From: Paramarasmius palmivorus
Lineage: Eukaryota > Basidiomycota > Agaricomycetes > Agaricales > Marasmiaceae
DNA length: 64,000 nucleotides
Direction of reading: 5' to 3'
Assembly: GCA_037176845.1 (NCBI GenBank)
Contig: JAYKXP010000026.1
Span: 602,411 to 666,410 of the forward strand
Below the pieces are notes generated by a model. It was not told where the DNA came from and did not search any database. It saw nothing but the letters and a program-made list of their open reading frames with translations. Positions 659 through 37,552 of this stretch are shown here, in pieces. The first letter of the stretch is position 1. Every line of letters starts with the position of its first letter. A program made the translations under genes and the position numbers.

Positions 659-1662
659 ATGTCCACCATGTCCACAAGACCTACACAAGTCGCAGCCGGT
701 CCGAAAGAAGTCAAAACTACGCGTATGCGAGTCTTCTGATCTATGTGATTAGTTCTAATGTCTTGTTTTAGCCCAAGGTCATCGACTTTCCAATGCCTCC
801 TGGAATCCTCCTGTAACTCCCGTCCACCAAAATTCTGGTAAGGAGTATTATCACTCGATGATCTCTAGCCTCATGTCCAAAACCTTCCAGATCGCAGACT
901 GAGCCTCGCACCGGCCAGTCCACGCTCCTCCAGACTTGGCCAGACCTCTCACGATTTCTACCTCGCTAATAGCGATATGCTACTAACATGTGAGCCCCAT
1001 GAGTCTACCATATCACATTTATATCGATACAAGTACAGATAACCTTCCGCCATTGGTTGAAGCAATGCAAGAGAAATACCTACGCCTGTTCAAGAGCGGG
1101 ACCATAACAGTGGGATTATCCATCTCGTGAATGCACGTCCACTTATTCTCCAACAGTCTTCCGTGCTCACACTGGTATCAGTGCAGCTAATGGCTTTCTT
1201 CAAGAATACAACCATCGACAACCCGCGTGCTGCTCTAGCACTTCGTATCCTATCCTACAGCGCAATTCTGTTTAACTTGAGCTCGACGCTCACTTCTCTG
1301 ATGCTCACCAGCAACCTCGGAGATTTGACTATGAAAGCGTCGAAAAAGGAAGTGGACCCACCAGAGGAAGGGTACATCTCTAGAAACATCACCATCTTCA
1401 AGCGTTACGGCCTTGGGCTGGCATGGTACTTAGTAACCTGTCATTGTGAGTATCGGTGTTTCATTTTTCTGCCGGTGAAGATTGCTCACCTAAATGTCCA
1501 GGGCTGGTTTGCTTGTCACTTGGATTCATGTGTTTATTAGCACAGATCCTTCTGTTTGTATGGTTAAGTGAATCGCTGCCGGCTGTAGTTGTAGCGTTCT
1601 CTGTCAGCGCCTTTGCTCTCATACCCTTATTATCTCATTTGATTTTGAGTCTAAGACGCTAG
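659..1662 (+). CDS. M1: small four-TM protein of an unnamed family
   Basis: The family is not recognised by name. Splicing seven exons by comparison with M2 and M3 gives about 240 residues: a polar N-terminus of about 80, a conserved LLTYNLPPLVEAMQ motif, then four hydrophobic segments (around SVLTLVSVQLMAFF, ILSYSAILFNLSSTLTSL, WLVCLSLGFMCLLAQILLFVW and AVVVAFSVSAFALIPLL). The exon joins are open and in phase: the motif exon starts at the acceptor near 1035 with a TAT codon split across the junction, and the last intron (about 1447-1501) rebuilds a Trp codon. Start: ATG 659; an in-frame ATG at 668 is an alternative. The stop at 1660-1662 is 53 bp from the stop of gene B, which faces it. I infer an integral membrane protein; role unknown. 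Confidence 0.7.
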
Positions 1663-1715
1663 TTATTCAAGTATTTATTCTATATATGTAGTTGATGTAT
1701 CTGATATGTTATTAA

Positions 1716-3600
1716 CTAGCCTTTTCCGGATCCTGTGATATAGTTCCATGCTTTTCGTGAAGCTCTCCGAAGCCAACTACCTGTTTCCTTTGTGCGTGTG
1801 TTTGGATCCTCCGCTGCAAGGCCACCCGGCATAGACGGTTCCCGGGATGTATCAGTCCTCACCATGTCAGGCTTCGCGTCTACGGTGTCATGCACAGGAC
1901 GTACACTCAGTGGATTTGGTGCAGGCAGCTCGCGCGTTGCCGACGAAGCCGCCTCTGGCGATGCATGTAGTCCCAGTCTGCTTGGGAGAGCTGTTTCAAC
2001 TGGACCTTCAATGCTTCGACGATTGTGAACGAGTGGAATATCGCCGTACACCCGATTCGTCGCGTTAGGGATATATATGGGTTCAGGAAAGGGCGGCACC
2101 ACCGAGAATGTCCACACTGTCCTGTTGCTGTCACGTTTCGCGACGACGAGCACTATCTCTAGGAGTTCTGTCCACGATTTGTCCCTGTGCAATTCAGATA
2201 CAGGTTCTCTACCGCGAGTGACTTGAGTAACCTCGATGGTGCAATGCGATGCGACGCTTTCCAGGAAGGGCGTGGACAAACTCAATATACCATCCGAGCC
2301 TAGAAAATACTTGGTAAGAGTTTTACATACGAAGGCCATAGTCGCACACCTTTCATTAAGAACGAATTATTACCCACACATTTCCACATGTTGCCAAAGA
2401 TAACCGGGGGTGAACAGAAACCAAAGGTACAAGAAAAGTTCGCGTCGTAAAGCATTCGCAGGCATGCAATGCCATGAGAAGTAGAGGACTGTGGAAACAC
2501 ATCACTCAATGTCGATGAGAACGGGACGGGCGTGATGGGTAGCGTCCACTGCCGTTGATCATCCGGATATTGTAAATAATAAAAGTGGGGATTCCGAAAA
2601 ACAGAGGGATAGGGATGATCTCCCTTCTCCACTCCTTTCAAGAATCGATACTGGGTGACCAACCATAGGAGGGCGTCACACGTATCTGTTAGCAGGCAGC
2701 GCACTGATAAAGAACAAATTCAGCAAACAATGATTCAGAGGGTAAGTTTCGCACCTGATGCAATTCGGAGTGGCCTAAAAGGCTCGGTGCAGATTTGAAC
2801 TTCTACATCTCTATACTGATCGTTACGCTCCTGATCCGCAACTGACTGCCCTTTCTTTTTCTTACAGTCACCCTTAGCATTTTGTGTCAAAGAGGAAGTA
2901 ACATAGAAACTACCTTCTTAGTATTCTCTCGTTCCCAATCTTCCGCATGTTTTGATTTGGAACTATCCCTCTCTTGAGCTTCGCTGAGTCTGCGTTTGTA
3001 GTCCTTCAACTATAACTTCTTTAGTTAACTACAGCGTGCAGAGCGGACTTTATCATGCGCACAATCAAGGACACGTTCGGATACTTGTCCAGTGCGCGCA
3101 GAAATGCTGCAAATGCGTTACGAGCTTTCGTTGAACCAGAAGATGAGGTAATTGACTTGAGCGCGAGGTTTGCAGAGCGAATTATTTCATTCAGCTCGCT
3201 ATGCATAGTCATGTCAGCACCCTCCCAAGATCACGCTGAGTCCGAGAGCTTGCCTGCTAAATGGCCCTCTCGGGCCCTTCAACTCAGCTTCTTGCAGCTC
3301 CCGACACATCTTGACAATTTCCATCGACTGACTGAGACATTTTCGGTTACTTCTGCCCACGAATTTACATAGCTCTCGGAATACATCGGTGATGACTGAC
3401 ATGAGGAAGAACTTGAAGGTATTGAGTGACACTCCGAAGGTCTGGGGAACATTGTTCTATCCAGAGTCTGATGAAGTAAACTCCTTCTGGCTTAAAGGAG
3501 TATGGAAAGATAATTTGAAGACTTGACACTGACAGCAGGAACGGTGCGTGTAGGAGTCGTGTTGAACTTGTCACCGTCATGATTATTCTCGTGACAACCG
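1716..3600 (-). CDS. B: unnamed helical/beta protein with basic C-terminal tail
   Basis: Not a family I can name, but clearly a paralogue of B' at 32.9-36.6 kb. Shared features in order: a leader with AVSVKSSNYLSIL; a helical stretch CKFVGRSNRKCL...MCRELQEAE (about 3250-3380); a second helix pair (about 3060-3200); a mixed core with DTCDALLWL, RNPHFYY, QWTLP, FGNMWK and FLMK (about 2340-2690); a Pro/Ser-rich linker; and a basic amphipathic end with WLRRASRKAWNYI. B' ends with WIRRVWDKITGHE. The intron after PFS appears to use a GC donor (GCAAGC). Splicing near 3000-3060 is uncertain. The first exon and start are not resolved, so the upstream bound is approximate. It is divergent from A and convergent with M1. 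Confidence 0.6.
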
Positions 3601-3978: not shown

Positions 3979-6127
3979 ATGTCCAACAAGCCTACCTCTA
4001 CTCCTCCTTCCAATAGTTCCGCATCGAACACGACATCGACCTTGTACAATATCCTCACCGGATTTCAATCTACGAATCAATATGAGGCCACCAAACTAAT
4101 CCGACATCTACTCGAAGCCGTGGCACATGACGCTTGTCTCGCTAAACGCAATACTCATTCCCTGCTGCAATTGATGTCCGACGCGAGGGATGCATATGAT
4201 TACATTAATGGGCTAATCGACCAAATCGAGCTTGACGACGAGATCAGCTGGGATGTGTTTGACTGCTATACTGGAGCCATCGGTCCCTTGGAGGAGTAAG
4301 TTTCGACAGAACCACGTGCACCACAACACTGACGATGTTCTTTGTCGATGAAGTTTACTTTTCCTTGTCTCCCCCGTTGCCGAAAAAGAGTCGCTTCAGT
4401 TTTTTGCGGACAAACACGAGCTTGAAGCATGCATAGATTCGGTTGAAACCTGGGGTCAAGATAGAATTTTGTTGGACCAGGCCATAGAGCAGTTGTACAC
4501 ATTATGCAAGGTTAGCTATTGATTCGTCTTCTTACAGTTGGCTAATTACCCGCTAGCTGTTTTCCAAGCCAGAACGCCAGCTTTCCCACCAATTTCGTGA
4601 CGACTATGTATTCTTATCCGCCTTGAACAGCGACTTCAAACGCCTATTTGGGGTAAAGGGTAGCTGGCTGAATGGCCGGCTCGATGTCCAAGCAATACAA
4701 GGCGTAATTCAGAAGATTGCAGACACGTTTGCAGCGAGGTCTTTGCGTAAGTCGGAAACGATTTCTTCCGAGGCGAGAATCTCCACCCATGGAAAGACTT
4801 CGATGATACTGATACTTTGGTTCCGACAGGGCTTGGAAGTTCTTGTCAAAAGTGTCCAATTTACAATGCTTGCGCATGGTGTACTTGAAATTGCTGGATC
4901 TGCACAAACATCGCCAACGGTTCAATATCATTTGAGATCTCCGGAAGTCTGGGCCGAAGGGAAAAGGTGAGTTTTGTTGACACACACCTTAATATCTAAC
5001 ATTTATTGTCTAGGTTTGCAGACGCGTTGATTGCTCATGTCATACCCAACACACAAAAACAATCCGATTCTGAATCACTCAGCACGCAGTGGCAGAGATT
5101 CTTGGACTTCTTGCGTTCAAATTCGGTTCGTCGGTTCGACTTAGTATGTCTGGTCTATGCACTCTGCTGACCACGATTTCAGATTGTACCCAAGCTGCCC
5201 AAGATTTATCCTGGCTTGCGAAAACACATTGGCAGGATCCGACGGCCATATTATTTGCAAGCACTCACTTTGGTCAATGAATGCCGCACGCTAGCGGAAG
5301 CATTTTCAAGTCAGACCGACAAAGTGAAAGCTCAGGAGCTTCTTGAGACGTGAGCTGGACTACAGCATCTTTCATCGACCGTATCTGAACTAGCCATGTT
5401 AGAACATTCACTGATGTCGATAACGCGTTGCAATCTGCAGCCACTCACGCTTCGGCCACTCAAGTATCGGACATCGGGTCTCAGCGATCGGAGGGCGTTG
5501 CCGGGGCCTTCGAAACGGCAGAGAGGTCCGTTGAGGCCTGCCTGGGTTCTTTTCAGGCGAGTTACCAAGCATAGTTGATTCGCAAAATTGAACCATCGCA
5601 TCCAGAGAGACAAGGAATTGTCCGAATGGAGGGGGAAAATGGAGAGAGCCGTTCAAAAAGATGGCGCCCAGCTGGACGCTTTTGAGCAGCGATTAGGAAA
5701 GGTTGGTAAACCCAGCTTTGCTCTATATGACTATATTCAGGAAAACTCTCTAGTCTAACAAGATAGATCCAGTGTCGATCGGGAGAAGAAAGTTGACGAT
5801 CGAACTCTGGGAAGCGGGTCCGGACAAAAGAGCGCAACTCGTTCCTGGCACGAGCCACAATACATGTGAGGTCTCCCTTTGTTTTCAACGTTCGTTCCAC
5901 TAAAATACGATTTCGTGTCAGTCGAAATGGATAGTTCAACAACTTTGAACGCTCTTCAATGGCACTATGCCCACCAATTTGAGGATATAGTCCTGCGCGA
6001 CCGAATCCTCAGTCCGAAATCGTGCTTCGTACAAGGTGGCGCTGGGGGCAAAACGAAGCTGGACTTTAGTCTTACTGTCGAAAATCTCTCGACATCTACG
6101 TTGCTTTTGTTCATTCCCGATAAATAG
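3979..6127 (+). CDS. A: unnamed multi-exon protein, paralogue of A'
   Basis: No known domain recognised. The first exon (ATG at 3979) encodes an acidic helical N-terminus with KLIRHLLEAVAHDACLAKRNTHSLL and ends GPLEE at a phase-2 GTAAGT donor. The paralogue at 28.9 kb has ISNLVKLIGHEVCSAKHNTHLL and EPLEE at the same donor. Later matches to A' include ACIDSVETWG/GCVDSVELWG, RDDYVFLSAL/RDDYVFISSL, LAHGVLEIA/IVQGVLKIA, RIRRPYYLQALTL/KIRRPYFLQAVTL and, near the end, IVLRDRILS/PDLRDRILG. About 550 residues are expected; no signal peptide or TM segment is evident. One intron (about 5553-5601) seems to begin GCGAGT, a GC donor. The stop at 6125-6127 faces M2 across 120 bp. Function unknown; the helical N-terminus may be a protein-interaction region (inference). 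Confidence 0.65.
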
Positions 6128-6247: not shown

Positions 6248-7187
6248 CTAGGCTGGACTTCCACTATCATAAGCCTTATCTGTCGCCCGACAGGCTAGAA
6301 CAGGATTCAAGATACTTCGAAGGATTGGTTCTATGAATGGCACCAGTGCAAACAAGACAACGACACTAACAGTGGCAATAGTCGCCACTTCTTCACAGAG
6401 AGCCACATATGTAACAAGCTGGAGAAATATGCAAAGGATTCCGCAGATCAAACCAACGAACCCTGAAGGTATGATGAGTGGGTAGCCTAATTCTGAGAGG
6501 TAGTGGATTTCTTACAGTGATACAACATTAATTGCCAGCTTTGTTTCTTTATCGTGCCAGCACCGTAGTCGCTCAAAATCTGTGAGACTGGCCTTTCTGG
6601 CATGTACCTTTTCTGTAGGTTTCTTTCACTGGACTTCCGTGAAGAATGCCTATCGATTTCAGCAAGTCTGTCGATCAGAAGCAATGCCGTGATTGTTGAA
6701 CTGGCGTTAAAGAGAATTGCGCAGTACGAGGTCGAGTTCAGAAACGCATAGACACCGCTGCGCTGACTTTGGAGGTCGTCGTCCGATTTGACCATCGCAA
6801 GTATTTGCGCTGCAGCTGCCGTGAGCATTGAAGTCTGCGAAGCAACAATGAGAATTCTATGACGCGTGTTTGAATCGTTACTGGGACTGACCACTACAGC
6901 AGAATTCTGGAACGAGGTTTGCCATGACTGTTGAAATGTTTTGATTAAGGGCGGTAGCTTGTCTAAGTGCCACCGTCAAGCTCGATGCTCCCGCCTTAGA
7001 AATTAAGTGGCCTACAGTTCAGGTTGAAGTCCTGGAAACATGCGTCGTCGTGTTCTTTGTCAACAGCCGTACCCTCAGAACTGCAAACTTTGGTTCGTTG
7101 AGCTCTTTGCTTGATCAGTCAAAGGACAAGTAACATACCGGATGGTGAGCGTGTGCCGGAGGTGAACAATGGAAATTGGGTGGTCAT
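6248..7187 (-). CDS. M2: small four-TM protein, paralogue of M1 and M3
   Basis: Reconstructed by comparison with M1 and M3. The start ATG at 7187 opens a short first exon; a second exon carries SEGTAVDKEHDDA; the conserved segment YKLPPLIKTFQQSW follows an acceptor at about 7022. A phase-0 intron (about 6839-6898) precedes TSMLTAAAAQILAM. Hydrophobic segments are TSMLTAAAAQILAM, FLNSTSYCAILFNASSTITALLL, WFVGLICGILCIFLQLVTYVAL and TIATVSVVVLFALVPFI. The C-terminal tail is longer than in M1. The donor after the second exon (GTTTCC) is weak but sits where M1 and M3 have introns. The gene is convergent with A. Probably an integral membrane protein; function unknown. Confidence 0.65.
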
Positions 7188-8007: not shown

Positions 8008-9295
8008 TCACTGCGAAGCGAGATCCAGGACTCGTGTATGCTTCACAACGTCAAGGGAATCTCCAAAATAGCGTTTGCTGACATACGCCCATTCTACGGT
8101 TCCTGTGACCATCGCAGCTAATCCCCGCATGTACTGAAAGCGTTGTTGGAATTCCGTCATGGGATACCTCGGTAATGAATGCGCAACATCGATGAACTCT
8201 TGACACTTCTGGATAAAAAGTAATGCTGCGTGGTTGATGGCCTCCTGCGCGTCAAAGTTGTGCTCGTGCATGATAACAGCAATAAGATTATGGCTGTCGC
8301 CCCACTCTTTTTTCACCGAGACAATGTCCTAATCACCGAAGTCAGCGAAATGCTCGAAACTGAATTCGGGGAGAGGTACTACATTGCCAATGATAGCTAG
8401 GTCAATGACCAGGTCCTCCAGCCGCTTGACGTGTGGATGTCCAAGTATGTGATCGAGAACGAGGTCGTGTATCGAAATTATAGATATGAAAATCCGGAGG
8501 GCAACAGTATGTCGCCTGAGAACAAAGTAATCTTCCATACTTCGTATTGTCGCAGTATTCCTTTCGAGCGTCTCTTGTGATATTGCTTCCAAATACTCTT
8601 GTAATGAGCTGATAAGACGGGCGTTGGCAGCTTCACTCGGCTTCGCGTCACAATGAAATCTTTGGAAGCAGCTGTGCCAGGGTAAGAGTCAGAAATGGGA
8701 AGTTCAGTATCAGGTTTTGGCCAACCTTCTTGTCATCCGTATGATTTTAGACTCTTCTTCTGAGCTCGGGCCGAACGGATGCCTATAGTAGACAATTAAC
8801 GCGATCCTTAATCTTCGTTAGGTAGCCTACTCTATTATCTGTAGCACGTCCATTAATTGTTTTTGAAGGTGTCCGTGCGAGGTCTTCTCCGCAAAATCGT
8901 CCAAAATAAAGAGCCAATGGGTCAAGTCCACAGCAGATCGAAAGTGTGACGGCTTCGCAAAGGGATAATACATTGCTACGAACTCTTCGACACGGTAACT
9001 GTTGTATACGTCCTGGGTTTGTTTATCGTATATTGAAAATGATTCAGCCCATTCGCCGCTCTCTTTTGCGAGATCTATGCGTGGATTTTGTATTGGGGGA
9101 TAGGGCCATTTCGCGAGAGACAGGATATCTGGGATGAAGAGGTGCCGTGGTTGACCGGGACCTAGTAGAACGCAACAAGTCAGTCGACGTGAGACACTGA
9201 TCATGAAAGTTCTTCTCAGTGTTCTCACCGAAAGTATATTGTAACCGTCGTTGAATGAGAAGACCGCTTAACGGGCGAGTAGCGTACTTGAGCAT
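8008..9295 (-). CDS. class I terpene synthase-like (sesquiterpene cyclase) protein
   Basis: Class I terpene synthases ionise farnesyl diphosphate using two metal-binding motifs, and both can be read here. The Asp-rich motif is FILDDFAEK (about 8890-8915), a DDxxE form. The NSE motif NDIVSVKKE is assembled across an intron (about 8318-8371) that removes an apparent stop. The first exon starts ATG 9295 (MLKYATRPLSGLLIQRR) and joins across a GTGAGA-TAG intron to PRHLFIPDILSLAKWPYP, the usual N-terminal segment of fungal sesquiterpene synthases. Downstream are SHNLIAVIMHEH and YMRGLAAMVTGTVEW, typical of the C-terminal helices. A basic N-terminus of about 20 residues precedes the fold and is unusual. 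It is divergent from the first NmrA-like gene. Product unknown; no P450 is nearby. Confidence 0.8.
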
Positions 9296-9594
9296 TGTAA
9301 AGAGTGCAGAGTTCTTGCTTGGGTCATCGTAACCGTAGTCGACAAGCCGTTGATTGGAACTCCGACGCGCCTCGGACAACGACCCCACCCTCAACATCAA
9401 TGACCCAGAGATGGCCACAGTCCCGTAGACATTATTCCCCTTTGCCGGTAATACCACAGCGTCCCTACCTCTCCGCCGCCGGAATCTCAAACTCTTCCTC
9501 TCCCTGAACCAATCACACAGACTTTGAATTTTTGGTCCGGTGCTGCGTGACCCATGTGGAGACATCTCAGTCTTGCTCATTCCGACCATTCTCA
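9296..9594. promoter_or_regulatory. shared intergenic region between terpene synthase and reductase 1
   Basis: A 299-bp gap separates the two divergent start codons and must hold both promoters. No clear TATA box is seen upstream of reductase 1, unlike copies 2-4. Joint control is inferred from the geometry only. Confidence 0.4.
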
Positions 9595-10978
9595 ATGCCA
9601 ACAAAAGTCCTAATCACTGGTGCTACAGGTCAGTCGATATGTTCTAAACCAATACATGAGACTGAAATCTCTCCCATCAGGATACATTGGAGGCTCAGTA
9701 CTTCACCGCTTTTTATCGCGGTCAGATGCTGCGTCATTCGACTTCCGGGCAATAGTACGTTCGTTGGAGAAAGCAGAGAAGCTCAGGAAATTCGGGGTCT
9801 CCACAATTGTAGGGTCTCATAACGATCCTATGGTAATGGTGAAGGCTGCTTCAGAGGTCGATGTGTTGATTGCAATGGTGAGCAGGTCAAAGGCCGCACA
9901 CTCGGACATCACAAACAAATACTCTTCTTAGGCAGATTGTGATGACCTTGCCGCGGCAGAGCTTGCGTTGAAGGGATTGAAGAAGCGATATGAAGAAACA
10001 GGAAAGCCGCCTATTTTCATCAATACGGTATGTTCTAAATGTTATTCAAGTTGATTCTACTGACGGAATTATAGTCTGGCACCGGTGAGACTCGTATTCA
10101 TCCAATCAAATCAAATCCTGATCGTTCGTGAAGGTGTACTTATGGATAAGGCACTGGGAATGTATGCCTCCCAGGTCATCTACAACGACGAGGACGCAAA
10201 ACAGCTGGAAGGGCTTCCCCCAAGCCAACCACATAGGATTGTTGACTTGGCTATCGTTGAAGCCGATAAAGCTGGTGTGTTTAGATCCTCTAGGCTATAG
10301 AACCTTTTAATGACATGCTCTTAGGTTACATCAAGTCGTACATTATACTCCCTTCTACCATTTACTCCATTGCAAAGAATCCGTTCATCGACGAAGGAAT
10401 CTCGCATCCATATTCGCAGCAAATCCCAGGGTTGATCAAAGTTGCGCTTGCTCGAAGACAGGCTGGAATGGTGGGCTTGGGGAAGAATATTTGGTCAAAT
10501 GTCGATATTCATGAACGTAGGTGGTTCATCATGCACATTGAAACTTGCCTCATACCCATCCTTTTAGTTACCGATCTCTATAGCGTGCTTTATGACTCGA
10601 TTGTGCACGATCCTGTTACAGGTCACGGGCGTGATGGGTACTACTTTGGTGCTAATGGCGAGCACAGCCTATTGGATGTCGCCAAAACGATAGGAGAAGT
10701 ACTCTTCGAAGTTGGGCAGCTGAAGAGTCGGGAGCCAACGTCATTCACGAAAGAAGAGAACGAAAAATGGTTCAAGGTGAGCGGCATTGTTCACCTACAG
10801 TCAATGAATACTCCGATTAACATCGGTAATATAGTCTGGTATGATGGGCAGCAATGCGCGGTGCATAGCCAATCGTTCCAAGGCAATCGGATGGAAGCCT
10901 GAGAAGACAACAAAGAACATGTTAGCGAGCATCAAGCCCGAAGCTGAAGCTATACTCAAGACATCTCAATCTTCCTAG
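9595..10978 (+). CDS. NmrA-like NAD(P)-binding reductase, tandem copy 1
   Basis: Member of the atypical SDR/NmrA-like family. The first exon MPTKVLITGAT joins to GYIGG, giving the Rossmann TGATGYIGG nucleotide-binding loop. Further family features are RAIVRS, GSHNDPMVMVKAASEVDVLIAM, NTSGTG, PSTIYSIA and a C-terminal block with GSNARCIANRSKAIGW. Relative to the other copies it is the most diverged: it lacks the MSQK start, has an extra intron after SGTG (GTGAGA donor near 10084) and ends KTSQSS. All joins are open and the gene looks intact. It is divergent from the terpene synthase-like gene at 299 bp. I infer that it reduces or oxidises a small molecule, perhaps a terpenoid; the family also includes redox sensors. 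Confidence 0.85.
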
Positions 10979-11382
10979 ACGAGATAACTTTGCTACAGCG
11001 GACATAGATCCCCGTGTCAGGTACATGTACACAGAGTTCAATGAAACCATATCCGTTGTAATGAATGTTATCTACGCACCGTCGGCCTCTCAAGATCTCA
11101 CGCGCACGAACTATACCTGTCAATAAGTCCTTGTACGACAAACTTTGGTCACACACACAGTGCCCGCACAGTACCCAAAACCTTCAACACCTTGTCACCC
11201 GACCCTATAATCTCCGTGGAAGCACATACACTCTCATGATATCTCAGCAAACGGGGTTCTCGTTCCGATCGGATGACGCGTTTAAACTCCTGTGAGTGCT
11301 TACTATAATGCGCCACAGACGTATAAAAGCCCATGTATCAGAATGTATCCATGCTGACAGCTTAAACATTTCCAGGAGGCAA
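10979..11382. other. intergenic: reductase 1 to reductase 2, with promoter
   Basis: No gene seen. A TATA box for reductase 2 is listed separately. Small open frames on both strands show no motif. Confidence 0.5.
11321..11330 (+). promoter_or_regulatory. TATA box of reductase copy 2
   Basis: TATAAAAG lies about 60 bp upstream of the ATG at 11383, a typical fungal TATA-to-start distance. Confidence 0.5.
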
Positions 11383-12719
11383 ATGTCACAAAAAGTCAAG
11401 CTTCTCGTCACTGGCGCCACTGGCATGTGCATACACCTCTAATAGACTTGTGTCTCTGATCTGATTTGACAGGTTACATCGGTGGTGCTATCGTCAGTCG
11501 TTTTCTTGCACGACCCGACGCGTCTTCGTTCGACATTCGAGCCATCGTTCGCTCTCGGGAGAAGGGAGAGAAACTGAAAGAATTTGGGATAACGCCCATT
11601 ATCGGCTCACATAACGACGAAAATGTAATGGTGAAAGCTGCGTCAGAAGTTGACGTCGCGATAACCATGGTGGGTGCAGGTTAGCGTAGCCAATTGTCGG
11701 CTCTCATGTATGGGCTTAGGCTGACTGCGATGACCTGGATGCCGCCAAATATGCGTTGAAAGGATTGAAGAGGCGCTTTGAAGAGACAGGGAAACCTCCG
11801 ATCTTGATTCATACAGTGAGTCCGGTGTGCTACGCCGGAAGACATAACTTCCTGTTGATGGGGTTTCCAGTCTGGTACTGGCGTTCTGTCTGATGACGCA
11901 GCAGGAATGCATATCACCGAGACCATTTACAATGATGCAGACTCCGGGCAGATTGCAACCTTGGCACCAACTCAAGTGCATCGTAACGTCGACTTGGAGA
12001 TACTCGCCGCGGACAAAGAAGGTATCTTTTACGCCATGTTTCTCAGGACACCATCGGATAATGTCCTACAGGCTATATCAAGTCATATATTATCCTTCCA
12101 TCGACTATCTACTCGATTGCAGAAGGGCCACTCTTTACAGCTGGAATTTCGAACTCCCATTCCGCACAAATTCCTGCTATTGTCAGGGCATCTCTGGACC
12201 GAAAAAGAGCAGGGATGGTTGGGGGAGGTCATAACCTTTGGCCAAATGTCAATGTCCATGAACGTTCGTCGTCGCGAAGACACATACACTTTTCCTTGCA
12301 GCTAATATCACTTCAGTCGCGGATCTATATAGCATTCTATATGACACGATCATCAATAACCCAGGAAAAGCCGGGCATGGTCACGATGGTTTCTACTTTG
12401 GTGCAAGTGGCGAGCACAAGCTCTACGATGTCAGCAAAGCAGTCGGAGATGCACTTGTCGAACTAGGCGTTGCGGATAATGCTGAGCCAACCACCTTTAC
12501 CTCTGAGGAGATCGACAAGTATTTCAGCGTACGTTGTGTGCCCTTTGAGCAGTATGGGTTTGTAGTGACAGCCTGATTTTTCAGGGATCAAATTACCTAG
12601 GAAGCAACTCCCGCTGCATCGCTAATCGTGCCAGAGCATTAGGTTGGAACCCAAAGAAATCGACTGCTGATATGCTGAAAAGCATCAAGCCTGAGGTGAA
12701 CCATTGGTATAAATCTTAA
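11383..12719 (+). CDS. NmrA-like NAD(P)-binding reductase, tandem copy 2
   Basis: Starts MSQKVKLLVTGAT. The first intron appears to use a GC donor (GCATGT after ACTG) and joins to GYIGGAIVSRFLARPDAS, rebuilding the TGATGYIGG dinucleotide loop. It then reads RAIVRSREKGEKLKEFGI, VMVKAASEVDV, HTSGTGVLSDDAAG, HRNVDLEI, SYIILPSTIYSIAEGPLF, ASLDRKRAGMVGGG, GFYFGASGEHKLYDVSKAVG and NYLGSNSRCIANRARALGW, ending HWYKS. About 310 residues, which is complete for the family. It is closest to copies 3 and 4. Probably a cytosolic oxidoreductase; substrate unknown. Confidence 0.85.
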
Positions 12720-13260
12720 CGCATATGCACACCAAAAGGGGTTGACTTGGATACTCTGATACACTATGGAATTCGCTCTACCTTCGTCAATACCCATTTA
12801 GCCTCGATGCTTGAAAATAAGCATCCATATATACTCCAAAAGTCCATATGCACCACATATCCGTACTGACAGTGATGGAATTGTATCAACATTTAGATTA
12901 TCGAAACCTCGTCCCGCCTTAGCTCGGGAGTTTTCTTGATTTCACAGCTATACCGCAAGAGCCCAAGGACACCCAGAAGATCAAGTTCAATTGCCCTTGA
13001 CCGGCAACTGTGAGGGTACACGAGTTAGTGAGGTGACGTAAGCTGCAGAAGGTTCTTTCCAGCGTCGTCATAATCATCATGCATGTCCATCTCGTTCTTC
13101 GTCTCCGTCCTCCCCGCGTGCTCTGGAATAACTCAATCCCTCTTTGCTGACTGACCTTCTTGCTGACTGATTGAACCTTGTGAGTAAGCAGTTGCGCTAG
13201 AGGCCTATAAAACATCGTTCCCACCCGCATCCTCAATACACAGCAGCTCATTCAATACTA
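12720..13260. other. intergenic: reductase 2 to reductase 3, with promoter
   Basis: Non-coding spacer. TATAAAA at 13206-13212 is about 55 bp upstream of the copy 3 start. An open frame on the minus strand (12919-13251) has no recognisable motif. Confidence 0.5.
13206..13212 (+). promoter_or_regulatory. TATA box of reductase copy 3
   Basis: TATAAAA about 55 bp upstream of the ATG at 13261, matching the position in copy 2. Confidence 0.5.
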
Positions 13261-14624
13261 ATGTCGCAAAAAGTCAAGATTCTCGTCACCGGGATTACTG
13301 GTATATTTCATTTATACCTTTGAGCTATTGTGTCTTATAAGGTTTTCAGGTTATATCGGCGGTGCTGTCGTTGACCGTTTCCTCACAAGGCCCGACGCGT
13401 CGACATTCGACATTCGGGCCATCGTTCGTTCGAAGGAGAAGGCTCAAAAGCTGAACGACTTCGGTATCACTGCGATTGTAGGGTCACACAATGACGAAAA
13501 TATCATGGTAAAGGCTGCTTCCGAGGTTGATGTGGTGATAGCTATGGTGATTTTCTTTGTCACTTGCCTACTGTAACGGCTAACATGTCATGCATGCACT
13601 AAGGCAGACTGTGACGACCTGGATGCTGCGAAATACACTTTGAAAGGACTAAAGCAACGATTTGAAGAGACAGGAAAGCCTCCGATCTTTATCAACACGG
13701 TGAGTTTCTTGATGCTGCTCTTTTGGAAACGGTTTTGATGGAGGAATAGTCTGGTACTGGAGTTCTAGCGGACAAAGCCGCAGGTAGCGGGATTACCGAG
13801 ACCATCTACAACGATGCAGACCCAGACCAGATTGAAACCCTAGCACCGACTCAGATTCACCGCAACGTTGACCTTGAGATTGTTGGCGCCGACAAAGAAG
13901 GCAGGTTCATAAGATATCTGACACAATGCAACTTCTCTAATGCGTTCCCCAGGATACATCAACAGCTATATCATTTTGCCATCGACCATTTATTCGATTG
14001 CAGTGGGGCCTCTCTTTTCTGCAGGAGTTTCCAACCCGTATTCTATCCAAGTACCTGCTCTGATCAGGGCATCTCTGGACCGAAAACGTGCAGGAATGGT
14101 TGGAGAAGGCAAGAACCTCTGGCCAAACGTTGACATCCTTGAACGTGAGTTGCAATCCAAAGCCATAACATATTGAACACTAACCCAGAGCTTCAATAGT
14201 TGCAGATTTGTATAGTATCCTTTATGACACGATCATCAACAGCCCCGAAAAGGCTGGCCATGGTCGTGAAGGATACTACTTTGGCGCGAGTGGTGAACAC
14301 AGGCTCTATGACGTCAGTAGAGCGATTGGAGAAGCTTTCGTCGAACTGGGAATTTCAGACAATGCTGAGCCGACCACCTTCACTCCTGAAGAGATTGACA
14401 AGTATTTCAATGTATGTTGTGTTGTTCTTTCGGTTTTGTTTGCGAAATAACGAATTTCCTAGGGATCCAGCTACCTTGGTAGTAACTCGCGCTGTGTTGC
14501 CAATCGCTCCAAAGCTCTTGGGTGGAGCCCGAAGAAGTCGACTCCCGATCTGCTGAAAAGCATCAAACCCGAGGTTGAAGCCTGGTCCAAGAAGGGTGCA
14601 TCTCCGAAAGCTGACAAGCTGTAG
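13261..14624 (+). CDS. NmrA-like NAD(P)-binding reductase, tandem copy 3
   Basis: MSQKVKILVTGIT joins through a normal GT-AG intron to GYIGGAVVDRFLTRPDAS. The copy keeps all blocks of the family: RAIVRSKEKAQKLNDFGI, VMIAM-type beta strand, NTSGTGVLADKAAG, ETIYNDADPDQIETL, SYIILPSTIYSIAVGPLF, YYFGASGEHRLYDVSRAIG and SSYLGSNSRCVANRSKALGW, ending KADKL. Every splice join is open and the reading frame looks intact. About 320 residues. It shares intron positions with copies 2 and 4, so these three probably arose by recent tandem duplication. Substrate unknown. Confidence 0.85.
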
Positions 14625-22506: not shown

Positions 22507-24701
<2,195 letters not shown>

Positions 24702-26823: not shown

Positions 26824-28919
26824 CTAGGCAAGGACTGCATCGAGGGACAAAGTAGTCCCTTGGCTAAGTAAGTCCTGAACGGACTTCTCGAACCCGAGGC
26901 GCTCCTGCTCTCCAGAAATCTTAAAGTGGGTGGTCGATCCTAGAATCCGGTCTCGCAAGTCGGGTTTATGCCCGATCAACACATATTGAAGGCCCCGAAG
27001 GGGAGTAGATTTGTCGACAGTCACTACGGACACAGTTAATTTAGATGTATCAGCTAGAACGATTTTGGAGACATACGTTCTACCTGGTTGCCCTCAATGT
27101 TGATTGTCACTTTGGTGTCCGCCGGTGGGGATGGTTTATTGAAGTTCTATTTCGGTTGAGTTTGTCAATTGGTGGTGTAAAGCGTATAACGTTTATTCTT
27201 CACAAACCTCTCCTTTTTTCTCGAAGCAATTGTTCAATTTGCTGAGTTGCTCCTTATCTTTGTTCCTCGCGTCGGTCATGCTCTGCTCCCAGTTGCCATT
27301 CTGCCACTCGGTACCTTTCTGTATAATGATTATAGATCAGGGAGGGAAGACCTGAAAGAACACATCGAAATACCTCAAAGTCCTCGAAGCTCTTCTTGAT
27401 CGAAGTCTGGGCCGCGTCAAATTTTCCCGTGACATTCGCGAGTTCTTCGGACGCTATTTCTTTGAGTCTTCCGTCTTTAGTAGCCTCGCGCGCAAAGTCC
27501 AAAGCGTCCTTGGCATTCTTGAGTGCGCTGAAGATTTCTTCAGCGGTTATACTGAGAGCTAGCTGAGCAGCTACTCACGGTTCCAAGATATTATAGGCTG
27601 TCTTCTTCTTCTCGTCCTTATCTTTCTCGGCCATGAATACGGCGGCCAATGCTTTGCATTCCTTGATAAGTGTGACGGCTTGTAAAAAGTAAGGACGACG
27701 GATCTTTGCGGCGTCCTTTCTGAGGCCCCAATAGAAAGCAGGCAGATCCGCAATGATCTAGGAAATCAGGTTGAGATAACTCGCGATTTAGCCAATAAAA
27801 AGGACATACAGATTTCAGCAAATCAATGAATGCTGTCCATTTCGTCTCCACTGATTCTTGGTCCGTCGGGTTAGCTAGCTGTTCGTCGATAAGTTTTCCC
27901 AGACTGCCAAAAAGGTCAAAGTAGGTTCATATCTCAGCGACGCGACGTACTCATTAGCCGCCTGCAAGACACTCGGCGAGGTCAAGTGTTGCCAGACGCT
28001 TCGATCCGTTGTTGACGAAGCTATTTTCAAAACACCCTGTACAATCATAGCGAACTGAACCGCAATGATTTCGACCACCTGGGAAGATTATCGGCGTTGC
28101 GTCAGGAAACGGCCAATATAGAGGACGTACAGAAACAATGGTATCCGAGGAATCGTTCTTTTGGGAAAACTTGCCCAAAATGCTCGCGACTTGCTGGGAG
28201 ACATCTTGAACAGGTTCCCATCTTTCATCACCCTTGCTTTCCTCGTGAAGTGTCTTGATAGCCTCATCAAGCGAAGATATAAATACGTAGTCATCGCGCA
28301 CGCCAGACCCGATGCGAAGAGGAGGATCCATAGTGAGCTAAAGGTGCCTGTCAGTACGGGTCGGCTCGTGTAGTTCAATCAAGCAGTATCTCACTCCTGG
28401 GATGCCGCGTAGAGTTGTAACAAGTCCATTGATTGCATTTCTGCTCGTACCCCACAGTTCGACAGAGTCCACACATCCTTCGATGCTGGTGTATGCAGCG
28501 AAATATTCTGCTTCCAGCTTCACTCCATCAGAGAGATAGAAGTCAAACAGAAAGCTAATGCACGAGTCAGTTGTGAAAGTAGAGGTTTAGCGAGAAATAA
28601 CTGACTCTTCCAAGGGCTCGATAGCATTTGTGTATTCTGCAAAGAGCTCCCATTGATCGTCCGAGTTTGAGGTGTCTGTATCGACTAAGTCGATGAGGGT
28701 GATGATATGGTCATTGATGTCCCTTGCACCAGAGACCAAGTCGTAGAGGAGATGCGTATTGTGTTTGGCAGAACAGACTTCATGGCCTATGAGTTTGACA
28801 AGGTTGGATATAATAAGGGTCGCTTCATGAGCATCCCTCGAATGCCTGGAGCGAGTAAGAGCGTCGAAGAGAGAAAGAGGAGGATCCGGAGATTGGGTAG
28901 TTTCCTGGGGCTCAGACAT
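26824..28919 (-). CDS. A': unnamed multi-exon protein, paralogue of A
   Basis: Paralogue of the gene at 3979-6127, with the same exon order. It starts ATG 28919; the first exon contains a Pro-rich leader, SLFDALTRSR, LVKLIGHEVCSAKHNTHLL and ends EPLEE at a GTCAGT donor in the same phase as in A. Later exons carry GCVDSVELWG, RDDYVFISSLDEAIKTL, IVQGVLKIASS, KWTAFIDLLKS, KIRRPYFLQAVTL, a charged helical stretch with LKNAKDALDFAREATKDG, and a final domain with GLQYVLIGHKPDLRDRILG. It ends SLDAVLA. It appears intact. Unlike A, no M-type gene is found at its 3' side. It lies upstream of, and on the same strand as, the NACHT gene's 3' side, with about 1.4 kb between. Confidence 0.65.
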
Positions 28920-30320: not shown

Positions 30321-32545
30321 CTATCGATACCGAACATGGTACACGACACGCTTTTTACAATCAGGGCATACATACATTGAACAATGTGGCGACCGATTAG
30401 CCGGTGAAAGCACCATTGCCAGTTCGCAGCACCATTGCTTGCCAAACGAAAGGCGTTCTTCTTCAAAGAGATCGGGGTATTCCATCAACCTTTTTCGCAG
30501 GTTGTCGAGATTTGGGGGATTTTCCTCTTCAAAAAGGTAGTATCCCATAATGGTGGCTGCTGCTTCTAACACCTCCGAAACTTTTGCCGAAATGTTTAAA
30601 TCTGACACATCAACATGAAAACCCTTGGTGTACTTGAGGAAGTTGTCGACTATTTTAATATCGGTTTTCACCTAGTAAGGGAATTGCGATCCGTAGATTT
30701 AGAACATTAACTATTGTTCTTTGCACTAGTGTGCCACCGAGCACTCACCGTGTTTCTTTGTAGTAGCGACTTGTGCTGAAAGAAGAAACGCTGAACGTTG
30801 CGGAAGGCATGCCGTGGCGCTCCTGCTGGTTGCGGCGTGCGTAAAAACAATGCTATTGCGGATCCAAGACCTAGATCGAAATTGGCATCTCGAAGAGATG
30901 ACAAAACTGCTTCGGAGAACCCGCTTTGCAAACAATGGTATCCCCACCAATCCCATGCCTTTCGGAATAGTTCTTCCTTGGGCCTATGAAAGTCCGTAAG
31001 CGCAAGCCGGACTGAGCAAGCCAATTTCTGGTTACATACTGCGGCATTCCTTTGCGTTTCCATTCAAAAGCACCTTGAACATACTGACCAATGACACGAA
31101 TGAAGCAGCATGCAATGAAACCATGCTGGCTCGCTCTATCTCCCACATAGAATTCCTCTGATCTGGCCGCGTCTTGGAGGAACTCACTGAAAGATATGTG
31201 CGGGGCACGAATTTCTTCATCGGGTCCACGAATATCAAGGACAGAGTGCATTCCAACTAACGTCGCCCCGATCTCCCCTTCGTCTAGTGATAAGAGTGCT
31301 TCAACCCTCGAGGGTGTGCATGGGCAAAGACTATCTGCCAATCGAAATGCTGATAGAGCCCGTAAAGCTTGCTGCACATCGCACCGATAAGGGTTGCACC
31401 GAAGGATTTGTTTGTAAAGAAGGTCAATGTTCGCGAATGGAATATCTTGTTTCCTTGGATTAAGAACCCGCCTCAGCTGAGGGATAGGGACAGAATATCT
31501 GTTATCAACGAATTCGATCACGGTCGCGGCGTAGAGAAACTGTTTGCTTGCTCTTGCCACGAGTGATTCAATGATGTCCAGGGAGGGCCACGGATATGGG
31601 ACATCGGGTAATTTGATTCTGCGAATACGCTCAAATTCACCCTCCAAATAACGTTTGATGTCGCCGTCCGTTGGGTATTTTGTGTCTAAAGGGACACGAC
31701 AAACCAATTCGGGCCCAAATTCGAGGAAGATCTCGTGAATATGTTGCTCGAATCTACTGACAATGAGGAATCGCACGCCTATGTCCTGTAGGGATAGAGT
31801 CTTGCACATGACACAGAGAATCTCCTGTTGTTCTTGTCTGCCTTTTTCGCGGGAACTGCTCTCTCCGTTTCTATCTTCACATTCATCCAGACCATCGATA
31901 ATGATAATCCAAGAAAGTGGAGTACGTCCCTCTGCAAGCAGTGTGCTTTGCACACGCGAAAGAGGCTCGACAATGAGTTCTCGGAACTGGATGGCGAGTG
32001 TAGCAGATAAAACACTGCGGTCCATTCGGATCTTTTGAGCAATTGGTTCCCGTATCTCTGGAATATGCCTCGAGAGGTCGTGAGCAATGGATAAAAACAG
32101 CGGCTGTGAATTATTTCGCATTGGATCACCATACGAGAAAAAGAATGATGAGGCTAAATAGCCATTCTGTGAACTGGCTTCAGCCATGGTTTGGGCAATT
32201 GTTGATTTTCCTGTACCGGCAGGTCCATGTAGCCAAAGTACAGGATTGGCTGGCGATTGGTTGTAAATCCAGCTGTGAAGATCACTTTGAACCTCCTGAC
32301 GAGTATTCGGATAACAATGAAGAGGCGGGTTGCATTTCCAGGAGCTGTGAGTCGCGCCTACGTCCTTTATAGCTCTCCAGAGATAATCGAGTGCTGCAAA
32401 TCGATATTTTAGTCATTAGAGTATTTCACAACACAAAGGACAAACGATCTGTAGTTGAATTATAGTTGTTGTTGATCTGGGGTCCGTTGACGTTGTTGAA
32501 AGTTCCTCCTTGGATGCGGAAACTATGGTTGTTGTGGAAAGCCAT
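30321..32545 (-). CDS. NACHT-domain NTPase (NLR-like protein)
   Basis: STAND-class signalling NTPase typical of Agaricomycete NLR-like families. ATG 32545 opens a short exon with an Asn/Gly-rich segment (RIQGGTFNNVNGPQINNN) that joins across a short intron to PLDYLWRAIKDVGATHSSW. The NACHT core follows: Walker A HGPAGTGKST, Walker B WIIIIDGLDEC, sensor region GVRFLIVSRFE, and the helical WYPTD-like block PTDGDIKRYLEGEFERI. Downstream is the winged-helix/arm region with ALRALSAF, PHISFSEFLQD and C-terminal exons ending VVYHVRYR. No WD40, ANK or TPR repeats are visible, so the receptor domain is short or absent. It is divergent from B' (about 310 bp between the starts as annotated). In ascomycetes NLR-like proteins mediate incompatibility and host defence; a role here is inferred. 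Confidence 0.85.
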
Positions 32546-32857: not shown

Positions 32858-35800
32858 ATGAACTCACAGGCTATCAGCGTATCCCGCGTCCCTTCCTCAT
32901 ATTCCTCCTCTCCCGTATTGGATGGGATCTTTGCAAATGACTCTCCCAGCCTTTATACGAAAAATGATGGGATGCGTAGGCAGAACTAGACGAACGTACT
33001 ACGCTCAAGCAGTTGTAGTTGTTCGAGCCTGTCAAGAACTGCAGGAAAGATACCAAGATATCATACAATTTGCTGGCCCAGATGCAGAACGGTACGTCGC
33101 AACCACCAACGTATATGCATGTCCTTAAACATCGTGATTTAGGGCACGCACCAAGATCAACAGCATAATCACTCTCGCTGAAGAATGCCTTTCATCAGCG
33201 GCCCAAGAGACCAAAAATCCGTTCGTCCGGTTCAGCACTCAGCTGAAAGAGCATCGAGATGATCCAACCTTTGGAGATGTCTGTATCAGCTACAACTCCA
33301 AAGAACTCTCAGCCAGCGCACTAACATGTCGAAAGGTCGTCCACATCTACAACAAAGAATTGGCTGAAGCTTGCACACGCGATAAATCCAAGATGTCCCG
33401 CTTTCAACAATTGTTTTCACGAGGAAAGAAAAAGGTATTCATCGCAACTTTGTATCTCAGTAGCTTCCAGTGGATTTGAAGCACATATATTTGCAGTTTC
33501 AAGACGGGTTCTCCGGTGCACTTACTCTGACCATTCAGAGCTGCAAGAATAATTCGCCCTTTGAGTCAGACATTGCCGTAGAAGGCAAGCTCTTTCTTGG
33601 CCCAATCCTTTTCGGAAGACTGACGGGTCGTTCCAAAGTGTTGTACCGGTGGGGGGATACACTCGATGGTATAATATGGTTGCTTGCCAAGGCGCGGTTC
33701 ATGCAATCTGTATCCTACAAGGAGCAGGTCTCAAAAAAAGGGCTCGAACCTCGCAAGGTGCAACTTTCTGAACAGGAGTCCGAGTTCCCCCTCCCTCGTA
33801 ATCCCCATTTATACATACCCTTCACTTTGAACCAATGGAAATCAGGAGAGCATCAAAGGGTCGAACCCCTGTTCAATCTGGACCAATCTACACGGGATGG
33901 AGTAACAACGTTTCGCCTTATACCTGACAGAGATTTGGTGCTCTACTGCGATTATACGAAGAGGAAATTCGGGAACCTATGGAAGATTGATGATAACGAC
34001 CATCGTTTTTTGATGAAAGGTACGTCTACGCGCATTATGCAGGTTAGCCATGGTGGTCTCAGTGGATTCACTTCAAGATCTATACGGAAATCTGCACGTA
34101 TCTTCGTCGGTTTTCAAACCTGTTTCAACAACTTCGTCAACAAGCGACGGCATGGAGCTATATGAGTGGTCTAAATGCCTTAATCAAGTCCTATTCGAGT
34201 ATAAAGCGCGGGATACCAAGCTGACAATGGTGCGCAGGCTATCTTCAGGGGCCAATAGAAAACCAATACTCTCTGCTATCCTCCTTCCATCTCCGACTGG
34301 CGTACTGTCTATCGTAACGCTCGTGTTACCGGACTCCTCATCATCCGAGTCATCGCCACCGTCAGATGAGAACACAACTAAAGAGTCGACGCCATCAAGT
34401 GATACGGAAACCCTGTCTTCCATCGCGGGGGATACAATGGGGAAACCATTCCTTGCGCATTCCTCAGGTATGTAAATGTAATCATCTTTTGTCCAGAAGC
34501 TCAAATCCACAACCCTTAGCAGGTTCCAAAGACTCACTGCCATCAAGCTCCAATCCGCTTTTGATTGAAGGTGACGAAGTCTCTGTAATTCCCAAGAGGA
34601 CAGAGACCTCCGCTCGTGACTTGCTCTGCACGATTTCGCCTCGAACGGCATTACCGTCTTCTGACGAGCAGGTTCCTGGCGATGAGGAGCCGACAACGTC
34701 CGCCGATACGGATTCTCAGAATTCTGTCTTAGAGGCAGGGCCAAAACAGCTCCCAAGTACAATGTCACCTAGTCTATCTCGCCGTTCAACCAATCAGACG
34801 AGTACTCGAGCTAGCGCTCTGCGTCCTTGGAACGCAGGTCCAGGTTGGAGGGTGTCGTCCTCTCCAGACTCAAAGCAGAACACAGGGGTAGCTACGGGCC
34901 AACAAAAGAAGTCACTGCACACAGGCTTACCACGGAGAGACTCGATTTGTCCCGATGATCATGCTTCTTCGATGTCACCTCGCTCTTCCAAAGATTACAA
35001 AACGTCCGCGTCATTGGCCGATTCAGGCAGGAATGCGATGGCGCAGCTTCGAAGCCCGTCACACCATAGTGTCAATCAGAACTATGCCGGGAGACGGGCA
35101 CAGCCATCACCTACCACTGGCATGTCCACGATATCCGCCACTAGTAGTCCTGCCCCTCATTCGAAAATGTCGGCGAGGGTACCCACTCAAAGCTCTCGAA
35201 CTAGGGCTCCAGTGCGGCAAACTGCTTCGAGTGCATCGGCAGCAGAACGAGCCAATGTTCACGGTGGATCGTCGACACCATCACAAACTCTGAAAAAGAA
35301 ACCGCTGCCACCATCCCATCTGACAGCGTCTACCGTTGCTGCACAGGATGCACCTAGCAGTATGGATATAGCAATGCCAGGGAGCTCACCAACGGTGGGC
35401 CAGGTAGAAGGTCACGGTCGTGTTTCTTCCTTGTCGCCTCCGGCATTCCAGCCATCGTCACACCATGCTTTCAAAGAGATCTCGGGTTCACTGCTGTCTC
35501 GTCCTGACAGAGCTTTAGGGGCCTCCATGATGGCTTCCAGTACTGCTGAGCAGCCACCAGAATCCTCATCTTCTCCCTCACACCCGAGATTAACGCCAGA
35601 CGGCAGTAGCTCCCTGGTTCCTCCATCAGAGAACAACACAGAGAAATACGGCGTTCCTCGTTCTGAGACTCCCTTGGTAGTACGACAACCTTCAAACCAA
35701 AGCGTTTCCACAAATGAGGATCCACAGCGTCAATTGACGGAGTTCCCAAAGCAAAGCACTTTGATGAGGGACCCGGCACCGGATCTGACAAAGAAATGCC

Positions 35801-36570
35801 TTTCTCTGTCAAAAGATTTGGCGGCACACACTTTAGGCTCGGAGGACTCCTTGACATCGTCCTTTTCGTGCAAGGGGTTACCGTCAAAGGGTCGGCTTGT
35901 CAATGTCGCACCCTCGGAGACATTAGCCGATACGACAGGCCACTATCTCGTTACACCTTCATCTCTGAGCTCTCAAACTCCAGGGCGAGAAACTGCAAGT
36001 GTCGTGGCAGCGGGCCAGCCGGATATTCCATCATCAAGATGGCCATCGCCGCACCAAGCCTTGAAATCCAGTCCCGTTGCCCAGCCAACAGAAACACCAA
36101 AAATATTGTCACCCGTCCCAAGCTCACCAAATCACAGTGTTCCTCAGTCAGATAGTTCCTCGCTGCCTCTTTCAACCGAGAAATCGGCGGGACCGTCTTA
36201 CCCTATTGAAGACAATGGCGCACATACTTTGATTCCAGAGTTCTCAGAACATGCGACACAGAGGGAGCCCATCGCAACTCTGCAATCGGGGGAACAATTG
36301 GCTTCAGTTTGTCCCTCTATCGCCAGAGATACGAACTTGTTATCTTCAAGCCGGGAAGCTCCTATAGATATGCACATACGCATGCCCGGTGGGACTTATC
36401 CAGCTGTGCTTTCTTCGAAGATACTCTCTCCAGCAGCGTCGAACGAAGCCGCTTCAGGTAATATGACGAGTTCACCCCCCCAGTCCCGCACTGTTCCGCC
36501 AGAACTAGCTATCAAGAAGAAGAAAGGTTGGATCCGGAGAGTGTGGGACAAGATTACTGGGCATGAATAA
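32858..36570 (+). CDS. B': unnamed protein with long Ser/Pro-rich tail and basic amphipathic end
   Basis: Paralogue of B (1716-3600). The leader has AISVSRVPSSYSSSPVL; helices follow with VGRTRRTYYAQAVVVVRACQELQERYQD-like sequence (about 32960-33065); a second helical exon (33145-33432) contains KVVHIYNKELAEACTRD; the core exon (33494-34020) has FGRLTGRSKVLYRWGDTLDG, RNPHLYI, FGNLWKI and ends FLMK at an intron, exactly as in B. After EWSKCLNQVL a disordered Ser/Thr/Pro-rich region of about 650 residues follows, much longer than in B. The protein ends KKKKGWIRRVWDKITGHE, matching the Trp-Arg-Arg tail of B. The start at 32858 is tentative. The stop is 8 bp from that of convergent M3. Possibly membrane-binding through its tail (inference). 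Confidence 0.65.
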
Positions 36571-36578
36571 CGTATCGA

Positions 36579-37552
36579 TTATGGCAGGATAAATAAGGTG
36601 CAAAGTGGTAAAGCAACAAAAGCACTCGTGCCAATGGTGACTACTCTGGCTGCAGTCGAGCCTTTCATCCAGATAAATAATATCACTTCAGCTAGTAGAC
36701 AGGTGAATCCGAGAGTGAGACAAATGAACCCTATATATGTTTGGATTTGTCACTAGCTACAGCCCTTTTAGTGTCCAATACTCACAATGATGTTTCACCC
36801 AGTACCACGAAGATTTGAGCCCGTACCGTTGAAGAAGGGCGTGTGTAAAGGATATGTACCCTTCTTGTGTAGGATGTGAATTACGCTTGGATGCGCAGAA
36901 GGCCAGCTCTCCAAGCTGGTATAAAAGTAGCAGAGACGTCGACGTTGCGCCTAGGTTGAATATCACGGAACAGTACGATAATATAACGAGTGCCGATGTC
37001 GTTTTGGGGTGTTCAGCGGACAGACGGTCAGTAATGGTATCGAAGTATAGCATGAGTTGTATCGAGGCCAAGGTGATAATTGAACACTAAGAAAACACGT
37101 TAGCAAGGTAGATGACCTAGACGTAAAGGCTGGCGTGTACGGCAACGATGGCAGCTTTGAGGGACCTAAACCAGTTGTTTTGTATTGCTTTGACCAACTT
37201 GGGGAGTTTATCTGCATATTCCGACTGACGTTAGTAGAGGTGACACAAATCGCAGAAATCAGACGCACATGTCAACAACAAGTCATTTCCTAACCCTGGT
37301 AGCCAATTGCTCGAACTTGCGTTCGAAATTGGTCTGGGGCTAATTCGTTCTAGAACGCCATGAATGTTTTATAGATTCAGAAATAACGACTCTGTACCAT
37401 GGTTAAAGCTGCGTTGGGAAGGAATACGTGGTTGAGCTAGCAATGGTTGAGACTCATGATTGGGCGCGAGAAGCTGAATCCACTGTACCGAGACGGGATG
37501 GAACTACTACTGTTGAGATAGACTGTTCATTGTCACTTGGGCTTGGAATCAT
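36579..37552 (-). CDS. M3: small four-TM protein, paralogue of M1 and M2
   Basis: Seven exons, reconstructed with open joins. ATG 37552 gives MIPSPSDNEQSISTVVVPSR; three short exons follow to NDLLLT, then the conserved YKLPKLVKAIQNNW (M1 has YNLPPLVEAMQEKY), a phase-0 intron, and TM1 around SIITLASIQLML. TM2 is SALVILSYCSVIFNLGATSTSLLL; a cytosolic loop with PTQEGYISFTHALLQRYGL matches PPEEGYISRNITIFKRYGL of M1. The last intron again rebuilds a Trp codon, followed by FICLTLGFTCLLAEVILFIW and VVTIGTSAFVALPLCTLFIL. The protein ends ILP. Convergent with B', with 8 bp between stop codons. Intron positions and phases equal those in M1 and M2, which makes the model firm. Function unknown. Confidence 0.75.

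Follow-up and report, generated by a model that had tools for sequence, protein, structure and literature searches.

Does a set of genes that lies together twice in one genome also work together, and does a NACHT-type NTPase gene inside one of the two sets belong to it? The question is raised by a 64,000-nucleotide stretch of DNA from the basidiomycete Paramarasmius palmivorus (hereafter the window; C26:602411-666410, where C26 is contig JAYKXP010000026.1), which comes from an assembly of 68.3 Mb in 393 contigs. The window holds two clusters built from three gene families, here called A, B and M, and the initial annotation had taken these families and the NACHT gene for one modular system, perhaps a recognition/effector set acting at membranes. 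Our comparison of gene order, introns and residual similarity suggests that the clusters very probably arose when an M-B-A block was duplicated once, long ago and in inverted orientation, the gene M2 and the NACHT gene being extras.

Two clusters sharing three gene families

Spliced models without stops were obtained for seven genes, with introns of 43-62 bases which are GT-AG except for two GC-AG. The model of A' equals its NCBI protein letter for letter, while the remaining models rest on our own splice choices, and those of M2 and M3 comprise the core only, without 5' exons. The positions in the window are as follows.

659-1662, plus strand: M1, 249 amino acids in 6 exons (spliced model, hydropathy)
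1716-3402, minus strand: B, 474 amino acids in 6 exons, with the A/B motif at its start (spliced model)
3979-6127, plus strand: A, 573 amino acids in 9 exons, with the A/B motif in mid-protein (spliced model)
5183-5349, plus strand: the A exon with the A/B motif, LPxxYxxLRKxxxxIRRPYxxQAxTxVxxC (window comparison, shuffle test)
6248-6963, minus strand: M2 core, four hydrophobic stretches (spliced model)
26824-28919, minus strand: A', 538 amino acids in 10 exons (NCBI VNI00_007988, here P0001)
about 30324-32545, minus strand: NACHT/NPHP3_N NTPase gene between A' and B', both ends read by eye
32922-36570, plus strand: B', 1145 amino acids in 5 exons, with the A/B motif at its N-terminus (spliced model)
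32922-33091, plus strand: first exon of B' with the A/B motif (window comparison, shuffle test)
36579-37212, minus strand: M3 core, four hydrophobic stretches (spliced model)

All reading frames of the window of at least 40 amino acids were compared with each other, the pairs not being preselected. The best E-values were 1e-16 for M1/M3, 2e-9 for M1/M2, 5e-17 for A/A' and 4e-7 for B/B', and the two clusters sharing families A, B and M were thereby confirmed, with spliced models that are open throughout. The same comparison also brought up an unforeseen link between A and B and, apart from this, a tandem array at 9.6-16.5 kb. Identity was 35.1% for A/A' (519 residues), 28.2% for B/B' (432 residues), 44.7% for M1/M3 (170 residues), 31.2% for M1/M2 (173 residues) and 32.0% for M2/M3 (169 residues). 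Seven of the eight introns of A have a counterpart in A' that agrees in phase and is at most 1 residue away, the eighth falling in an alignment gap, and two core introns are exactly common to M1, M2 and M3; M1 has three additional 5' introns, beyond the reach of the M2 and M3 models. For B, 2 of 5 introns are matched in B' within 3 residues and in phase, and a third, after FLMK, was matched by eye. Paralogy, which the initial annotation had proposed from motif order and intron positions, was borne out for A and M and only partly tested for B.

Cluster 1 reads M1> <B A> <M2, and cluster 2, once reversed, reads M3> <B' NACHT> A'>. As had been described, B and B' each stand tail to tail with an M gene (53 bases between the stops of M1 and B, 8 bases between those of M3 and B'), and A and B read outward from a common side, being divergent with 576 bases between their start codons in cluster 1. 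In cluster 2 NACHT and B' are head to head with 376 bases between the starts, that of NACHT having been read by eye. The order M> <B A> is present in both clusters despite identities of 28-45%, and A, B and M can be regarded as a real conserved neighbourhood. M1 and M3 form the positional pair of the two clusters, and M2 is closest to a copy on contig C48 (C48:387344-387868, 54%), more so than to M1 or M3. Residual DNA similarity between the clusters was found on the minus strand (58% for M and 60% for the A exons), and pieces of A, B and M were also similar in translation. The same order and orientation after flipping, the minus-strand DNA similarity and the conserved introns point to a single ancient event, an inverted segmental duplication of a compact M> <B A> block, which would have produced both clusters. 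Cluster 1 would then differ by its extra M2, from another M subfamily, and cluster 2 by NACHT between B' and A', where cluster 1 has the shared divergent start region.

A motif common to A and B

The N-termini of B and B' resemble a well-conserved exon in the middle of A, with the pattern LPxFYxxLRKxxxxIRRPYFxQAVTxVRxC. When B' was compared with each of four A copies (see below), 0 of 2000 shuffles reached the score; for B this number was 0 of 2000 against A, 6 against the C28 copy, 33 against A' and 71 against the C15 copy. A genome search with the consensus at E up to 10 returned B' (E 0.2) and all four copies of A but not B, so that a diverged copy of the motif elsewhere could be missed too. 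Since B contains the motif of mid-A, the A and B genes share part of their origin. This link is an addition to the initial annotation.

Copies elsewhere in the genome

We found at least four A loci in the genome, namely A, A', one on C28 at 129.1-130.4 kb or slightly beyond and one on C15 at 727.3-729.0 kb, and at least four M copies, namely M1, M2, M3 and the one on C48. There were at least two copies of B, both in the M-B-A blocks, with none seen outside the blocks in genome searches. A match to A on C165 at E 1.6 was left out of the count. These family counts are lower bounds because the searches missed known copies: that with A' missed the C15 copy, the B' query missed B and the B query missed B'. 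B and M are present at 2 of the 4 A loci found. In flanks of about 6-8 kb to either side of the solo copies (A on C28 and C15, M on C48), neither NACHT nor another of the families gave a clear match, B being represented by B' alone. Weak matches near the solo copies that were not counted comprise M3 at E 0.96 on C28 and NACHT at E 0.06 (19 residues) and 0.33 on C48; B' also matches the solo A copies via the shared A/B motif.

Limited searches of a protein collection returned no relatives of A, B or M outside the species. In these searches the best 8000 candidates by shared words were scored for A' and M, and the A' model returned one record, VNI00_007988 of P. palmivorus itself. The M search returned no M gene of the own species, and the B search not even B. 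At the level of titles and abstract openings, nothing on the A, B and M genes surfaced in the literature.

The NACHT gene

The NACHT gene of the window exceeded the Pfam cut-offs for PF24883 (NPHP3_N; 94.3 bits vs 24.8, E 1e-26) and PF05729 (NACHT; 41.0 bits vs 26.7, E 2e-10), and a Pfam scan of its first 490 residues found no repeats of the kind that NOD-like receptors carry at the C-terminus. Matches of the NACHT type are numerous in the genome, with 150 for PF24883 (150 of 246 candidates scored) and 85 for PF05729 (86 of 222 candidates scored). We calculated chance figures from 150 NACHT positions in 68.3 Mb, the figure in brackets being scaled to 246 candidates. The chance that a 10.7-kb segment holds a NACHT is 0.021 (0.034), which gives 0.041 (0.067) for at least one of two blocks and 0.081 (0.130) for at least one of four loci; the chance that one or more of the four A loci have a NACHT within 10 kb is 0.136 (0.216). 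Among the NACHTs listed, none is on C28 or C15, and the nearest lie 28 kb from A of cluster 1 and 4.5 kb from A'. Of the two blocks one has a NACHT, and both solo A loci are without one. Its presence inside one of two blocks, at 0.04-0.07 by chance, is borderline, and it bears on this figure that the locus was chosen because a NACHT gene is present there. These counts give little reason to assume a NACHT link, yet there may be one; most simply, the NACHT in cluster 2 would be a chance insertion from a large population scattered over the genome.

The accessible part of PMC9815663 gives, as the criterion of amyloid signalling, the same motif at the N-terminus of a NOD-like receptor (NLR) and in a neighbour protein. 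The N-terminus of the window NACHT begins MAFHNNHSFRIQGGTFNNVNG, with the motif FRIQGGTFNNV, and a C48 relative begins similarly (MFANSRKFHISGGQFNNVAGN). Neither pairwise shuffles nor a profile revealed this motif in any of the seven proteins A, A', B, B', M1, M2 and M3. The number of shuffles per 1000 which reached the best score was 50 for A' (the lowest count, uncorrected for seven tests), 173 for A, 333 for B, 363 for B', 380 for M2, 516 for M3 and 542 for M1, and the profile gave E 0.23 for A' and E 0.9 for M2, the other five proteins being unreported. A look-alike in the B' tail, GGTYPAV, was ruled out, as 363 of 1000 shuffles reached its score. A genome-wide search, which also missed B, showed the A/B motif in no NACHT gene.

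The motif in the extended form FxIxGGxFNNVxG (32430-32545 in the window) also starts reading frames at C48:268915, C48:271736, C32:510091, C32:512177, C63:126688 and C14:664982, and at the two C32 sites and those on C63 and C14 there is no NACHT among the PF24883 matches listed. Its DNA pattern has 75 matches in the genome vs 25 for a reversed control; besides the window's own site, 7 of the 75 were translated, of which 6 have the motif and one, on C51, lacks its first half. These sites may be copies of one motif on the NLR side and on the partner side. The nearest three relatives of the window NACHT (47-48%) are all on C48 (410 kb), as is the only other M found, at least 115 kb from them.

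Two known systems offer a comparison. In ascomycete HET-S/NWD2-type pairs of a STAND (signal transduction ATPase with numerous domains) gene and an effector gene, as outlined in the accessible part of PMC3321046, the likeness is that a NACHT-type STAND gene has neighbours which include a putative membrane-protein gene and that the NACHT N-terminus carries a short motif of amyloid-like type. The window differs in that the neighbours have no detectable matching motif or Pfam effector domain and in that the linkage is at a single locus. The start of the window NACHT is also like that of the Agaricomycete NLR05/08/22/29/44 group, which has short N-terminal amyloid-like motifs according to the accessible text of PMC9815663; this assignment is our own reading from descriptions, not from published alignments, and the likeness concerns NACHT alone, the motif being undetected in A, B and M.

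Predicted features of the A, B and M proteins

Hydropathy gave four hydrophobic stretches in M2 and M3 and at least three separate ones in M1, the last two perhaps merged; the N-terminal part of M1 has no hydrophobic stretches and is followed by three to four hydrophobic helices. M has the look of a membrane protein, which agrees with the membrane role hinted at initially. A' shows a single stretch of strong hydrophobicity and, within the A/B motif, a weaker one, and in the B' core no stretch exceeded the threshold. A appears to be mostly helical when read by eye. The tail of B has 104 residues, is rich in Ser, Pro, Arg and Ala and finishes in a basic Trp-containing end (GSWLRRASRKAWNYITG); that of B' has 725 residues, is rich in Ser, Pro, Thr and Ala (19% Ser, 11% Pro) and also finishes in a basic Trp-containing end (KKKKGWIRRVWDKITGHE).

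No Pfam family above cut-off and no significant PDB match was obtained for A, B or M. By sequence profiles no HeLo, Goodbye or MLKL-like effector domain was found in A, with 0 families at E up to 5 for P0001 and part of the C28 copy, and the only Pfam match of A was AlphaC_N (E 0.13). Two identities for M were rejected, Orai-1 (PF07856; M3 at 17.5 bits vs a cut-off of 25, E 0.003) and the Sensor domain (PF13796; M2 at 20.7 bits vs a cut-off of 28.2, E 0.0004); these matches differ between the M paralogs, as membrane-helix composition would give. The M profile had no match in PDB at E up to 10, and A and B had none at E up to 1. The C-terminus of A looked ubiquitin-like by eye, and hhalign, at the low power of two sequences per side, gave this no support, with a probability of 0.1% against ubiquitin/NEDD8 where shuffled columns had a median of 0.2 and a maximum of 8.8; it had no ubiquitin-like sequence match in PDB and no Pfam match above cut-off. 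Sub-threshold Pfam matches which we left unused were YkuI_C for the rough A' (E 0.04), GATA_AreA for M1 (E 0.05), Apolipoprotein for B' (E 0.07), DUF2130 (E 0.08) and 7TM_GPCR_Srz (E 0.11) for M2 and CBM_X2 at the end of A' (E 0.1); PDB matches left unused were those of the B' core (E 0.26-0.83) and the end of A (E 1.4-5.1).

Surroundings of the blocks

Between the two M-B-A blocks, terpene synthase exons (Terpene_syn_C_2) were found on the minus strand at 8.0-8.7 kb of the window, adjoined by four tandem gene copies at about 9.6-16.5 kb, of which the one tested matches NmrA. By these matches, positions 8011-16480 may hold a small cluster of terpenoid genes. Cluster 2 is followed on its right, at 40216-49324, by ordinary genes, with dihydrouridine synthase, methylenetetrahydrofolate reductase and the DASH subunit Ask1 above cut-off, together with DnaJ-like and endonuclease/phosphatase-like pieces below the Pfam cut-off. 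From 50000 to 64000 the G+C content is 38-46% per 2 kb vs 46-52% before, long reading frames are few and the three pieces tested had no Pfam match; this part is possibly repeat-rich. No RNA family exceeded its gathering score in positions 1-38000, and ARAGORN found no tRNA in the window.

Weighing the explanations

A functional account can be set beside the genomic one. A and B would bind each other via their shared motif, read as helical; B would be a scaffold that rests on a membrane by its Ser/Pro-rich tail and its basic Trp-containing end; M would be the integral membrane partner of B there; and the conserved divergent and tail-to-tail layout would keep A, B and M co-expressed. On its own, this picture of A-B binding with B docking near M seems to us unlikely, and jointly with the genomic account, which has most of the weight, it forms an explanation that is on balance probable. 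Several points weigh against it. As both clusters come from one duplication, their kept linkage is a single history and not independent evidence of function, and the solo copies (two of A, on C28 and C15, and one of M, on C48) mean that A, B and M are not obligate partners. Further diverged B copies could exist unseen, since the B and B' queries miss each other. Helix content and membrane docking are predicted from sequence alone, and the ends of B and B' do not stand out by their helical moment, the value being reached in 551 (B), 408 (B') and 159 (a shorter B' cut) of 5000 shuffles. The solo copies, together with the lack of relatives outside the species in limited searches and the fact that a single duplication accounts for the repeat, would also fit A, B and M being lineage-restricted genes with no joint function, kept together by block duplication and a slow decay of short-range order. 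We hold this to be quite possible, if short of probable: the genes have kept their order, orientation and close spacing (53 and 8 bases between the stops of M and B) at an identity that has fallen to 28-45%, and the shared motif means that at least A and B are related.

Very unlikely, in our judgement, is the system originally proposed, in which A, B, M and NACHT make up one modular recognition/effector unit; NACHT would here be a sensor acting via its neighbours at the membrane. It would account for the position of NACHT inside a block, head to head with B' (376 bases), where chance would place one in either of two blocks with a probability of only 0.04-0.07, and it agrees with the membrane-like M and with the paired STAND and effector genes of ascomycetes (accessible part of PMC3321046). 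Yet NACHT is near one of four A loci, for which chance at 10 kb is 0.14-0.22, its N-terminal motif is undetected in the seven A, B and M proteins, these have no known effector domain above the Pfam cut-off, and the search for the A/B motif, which also missed B, brought up no NACHT gene. Of the original interpretation, the A/B/M neighbourhood and the membrane-like M stood, while membership of NACHT was not supported and a recognition/effector role received no support from Pfam families. Since the NACHT genes most like that of the window (three, at 47-48%) and the one further M found (54% to M2) all lie on the 410-kb C48, M2 of cluster 1 and NACHT of cluster 2 might have arrived together from a region now on that contig. 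This is the least likely of the explanations: the C48 copies are 115 kb apart at nearest, M2 and NACHT are in different clusters of the window, and the pattern was noticed after the fact. The inverted M-B-A duplication with two extras remains the account we prefer. Hardly more likely than the C48 origin is a bolder extension of it, in which A, B and M would be a new membrane-linked three-protein complex of marasmioid fungi, with A and B paired by their motif and B docked on M; in cluster 2 a NACHT gene would have entered the promoter common to its neighbours and would now control one of the copies.

If that extension were true, the capture of NACHT would be a way for a basidiomycete to link a membrane effector to an NLR with no transfer of an amyloid motif. 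Should A, B and M not cooperate, the locus is a useful warning that a single NACHT next to an uncharacterised gene says little about a link where the genome has at least 150 NACHT-type matches. If they do cooperate, they would be a small uncharacterised module with a built-in test, as two diverged blocks and solo copies of A and M occur in one genome.

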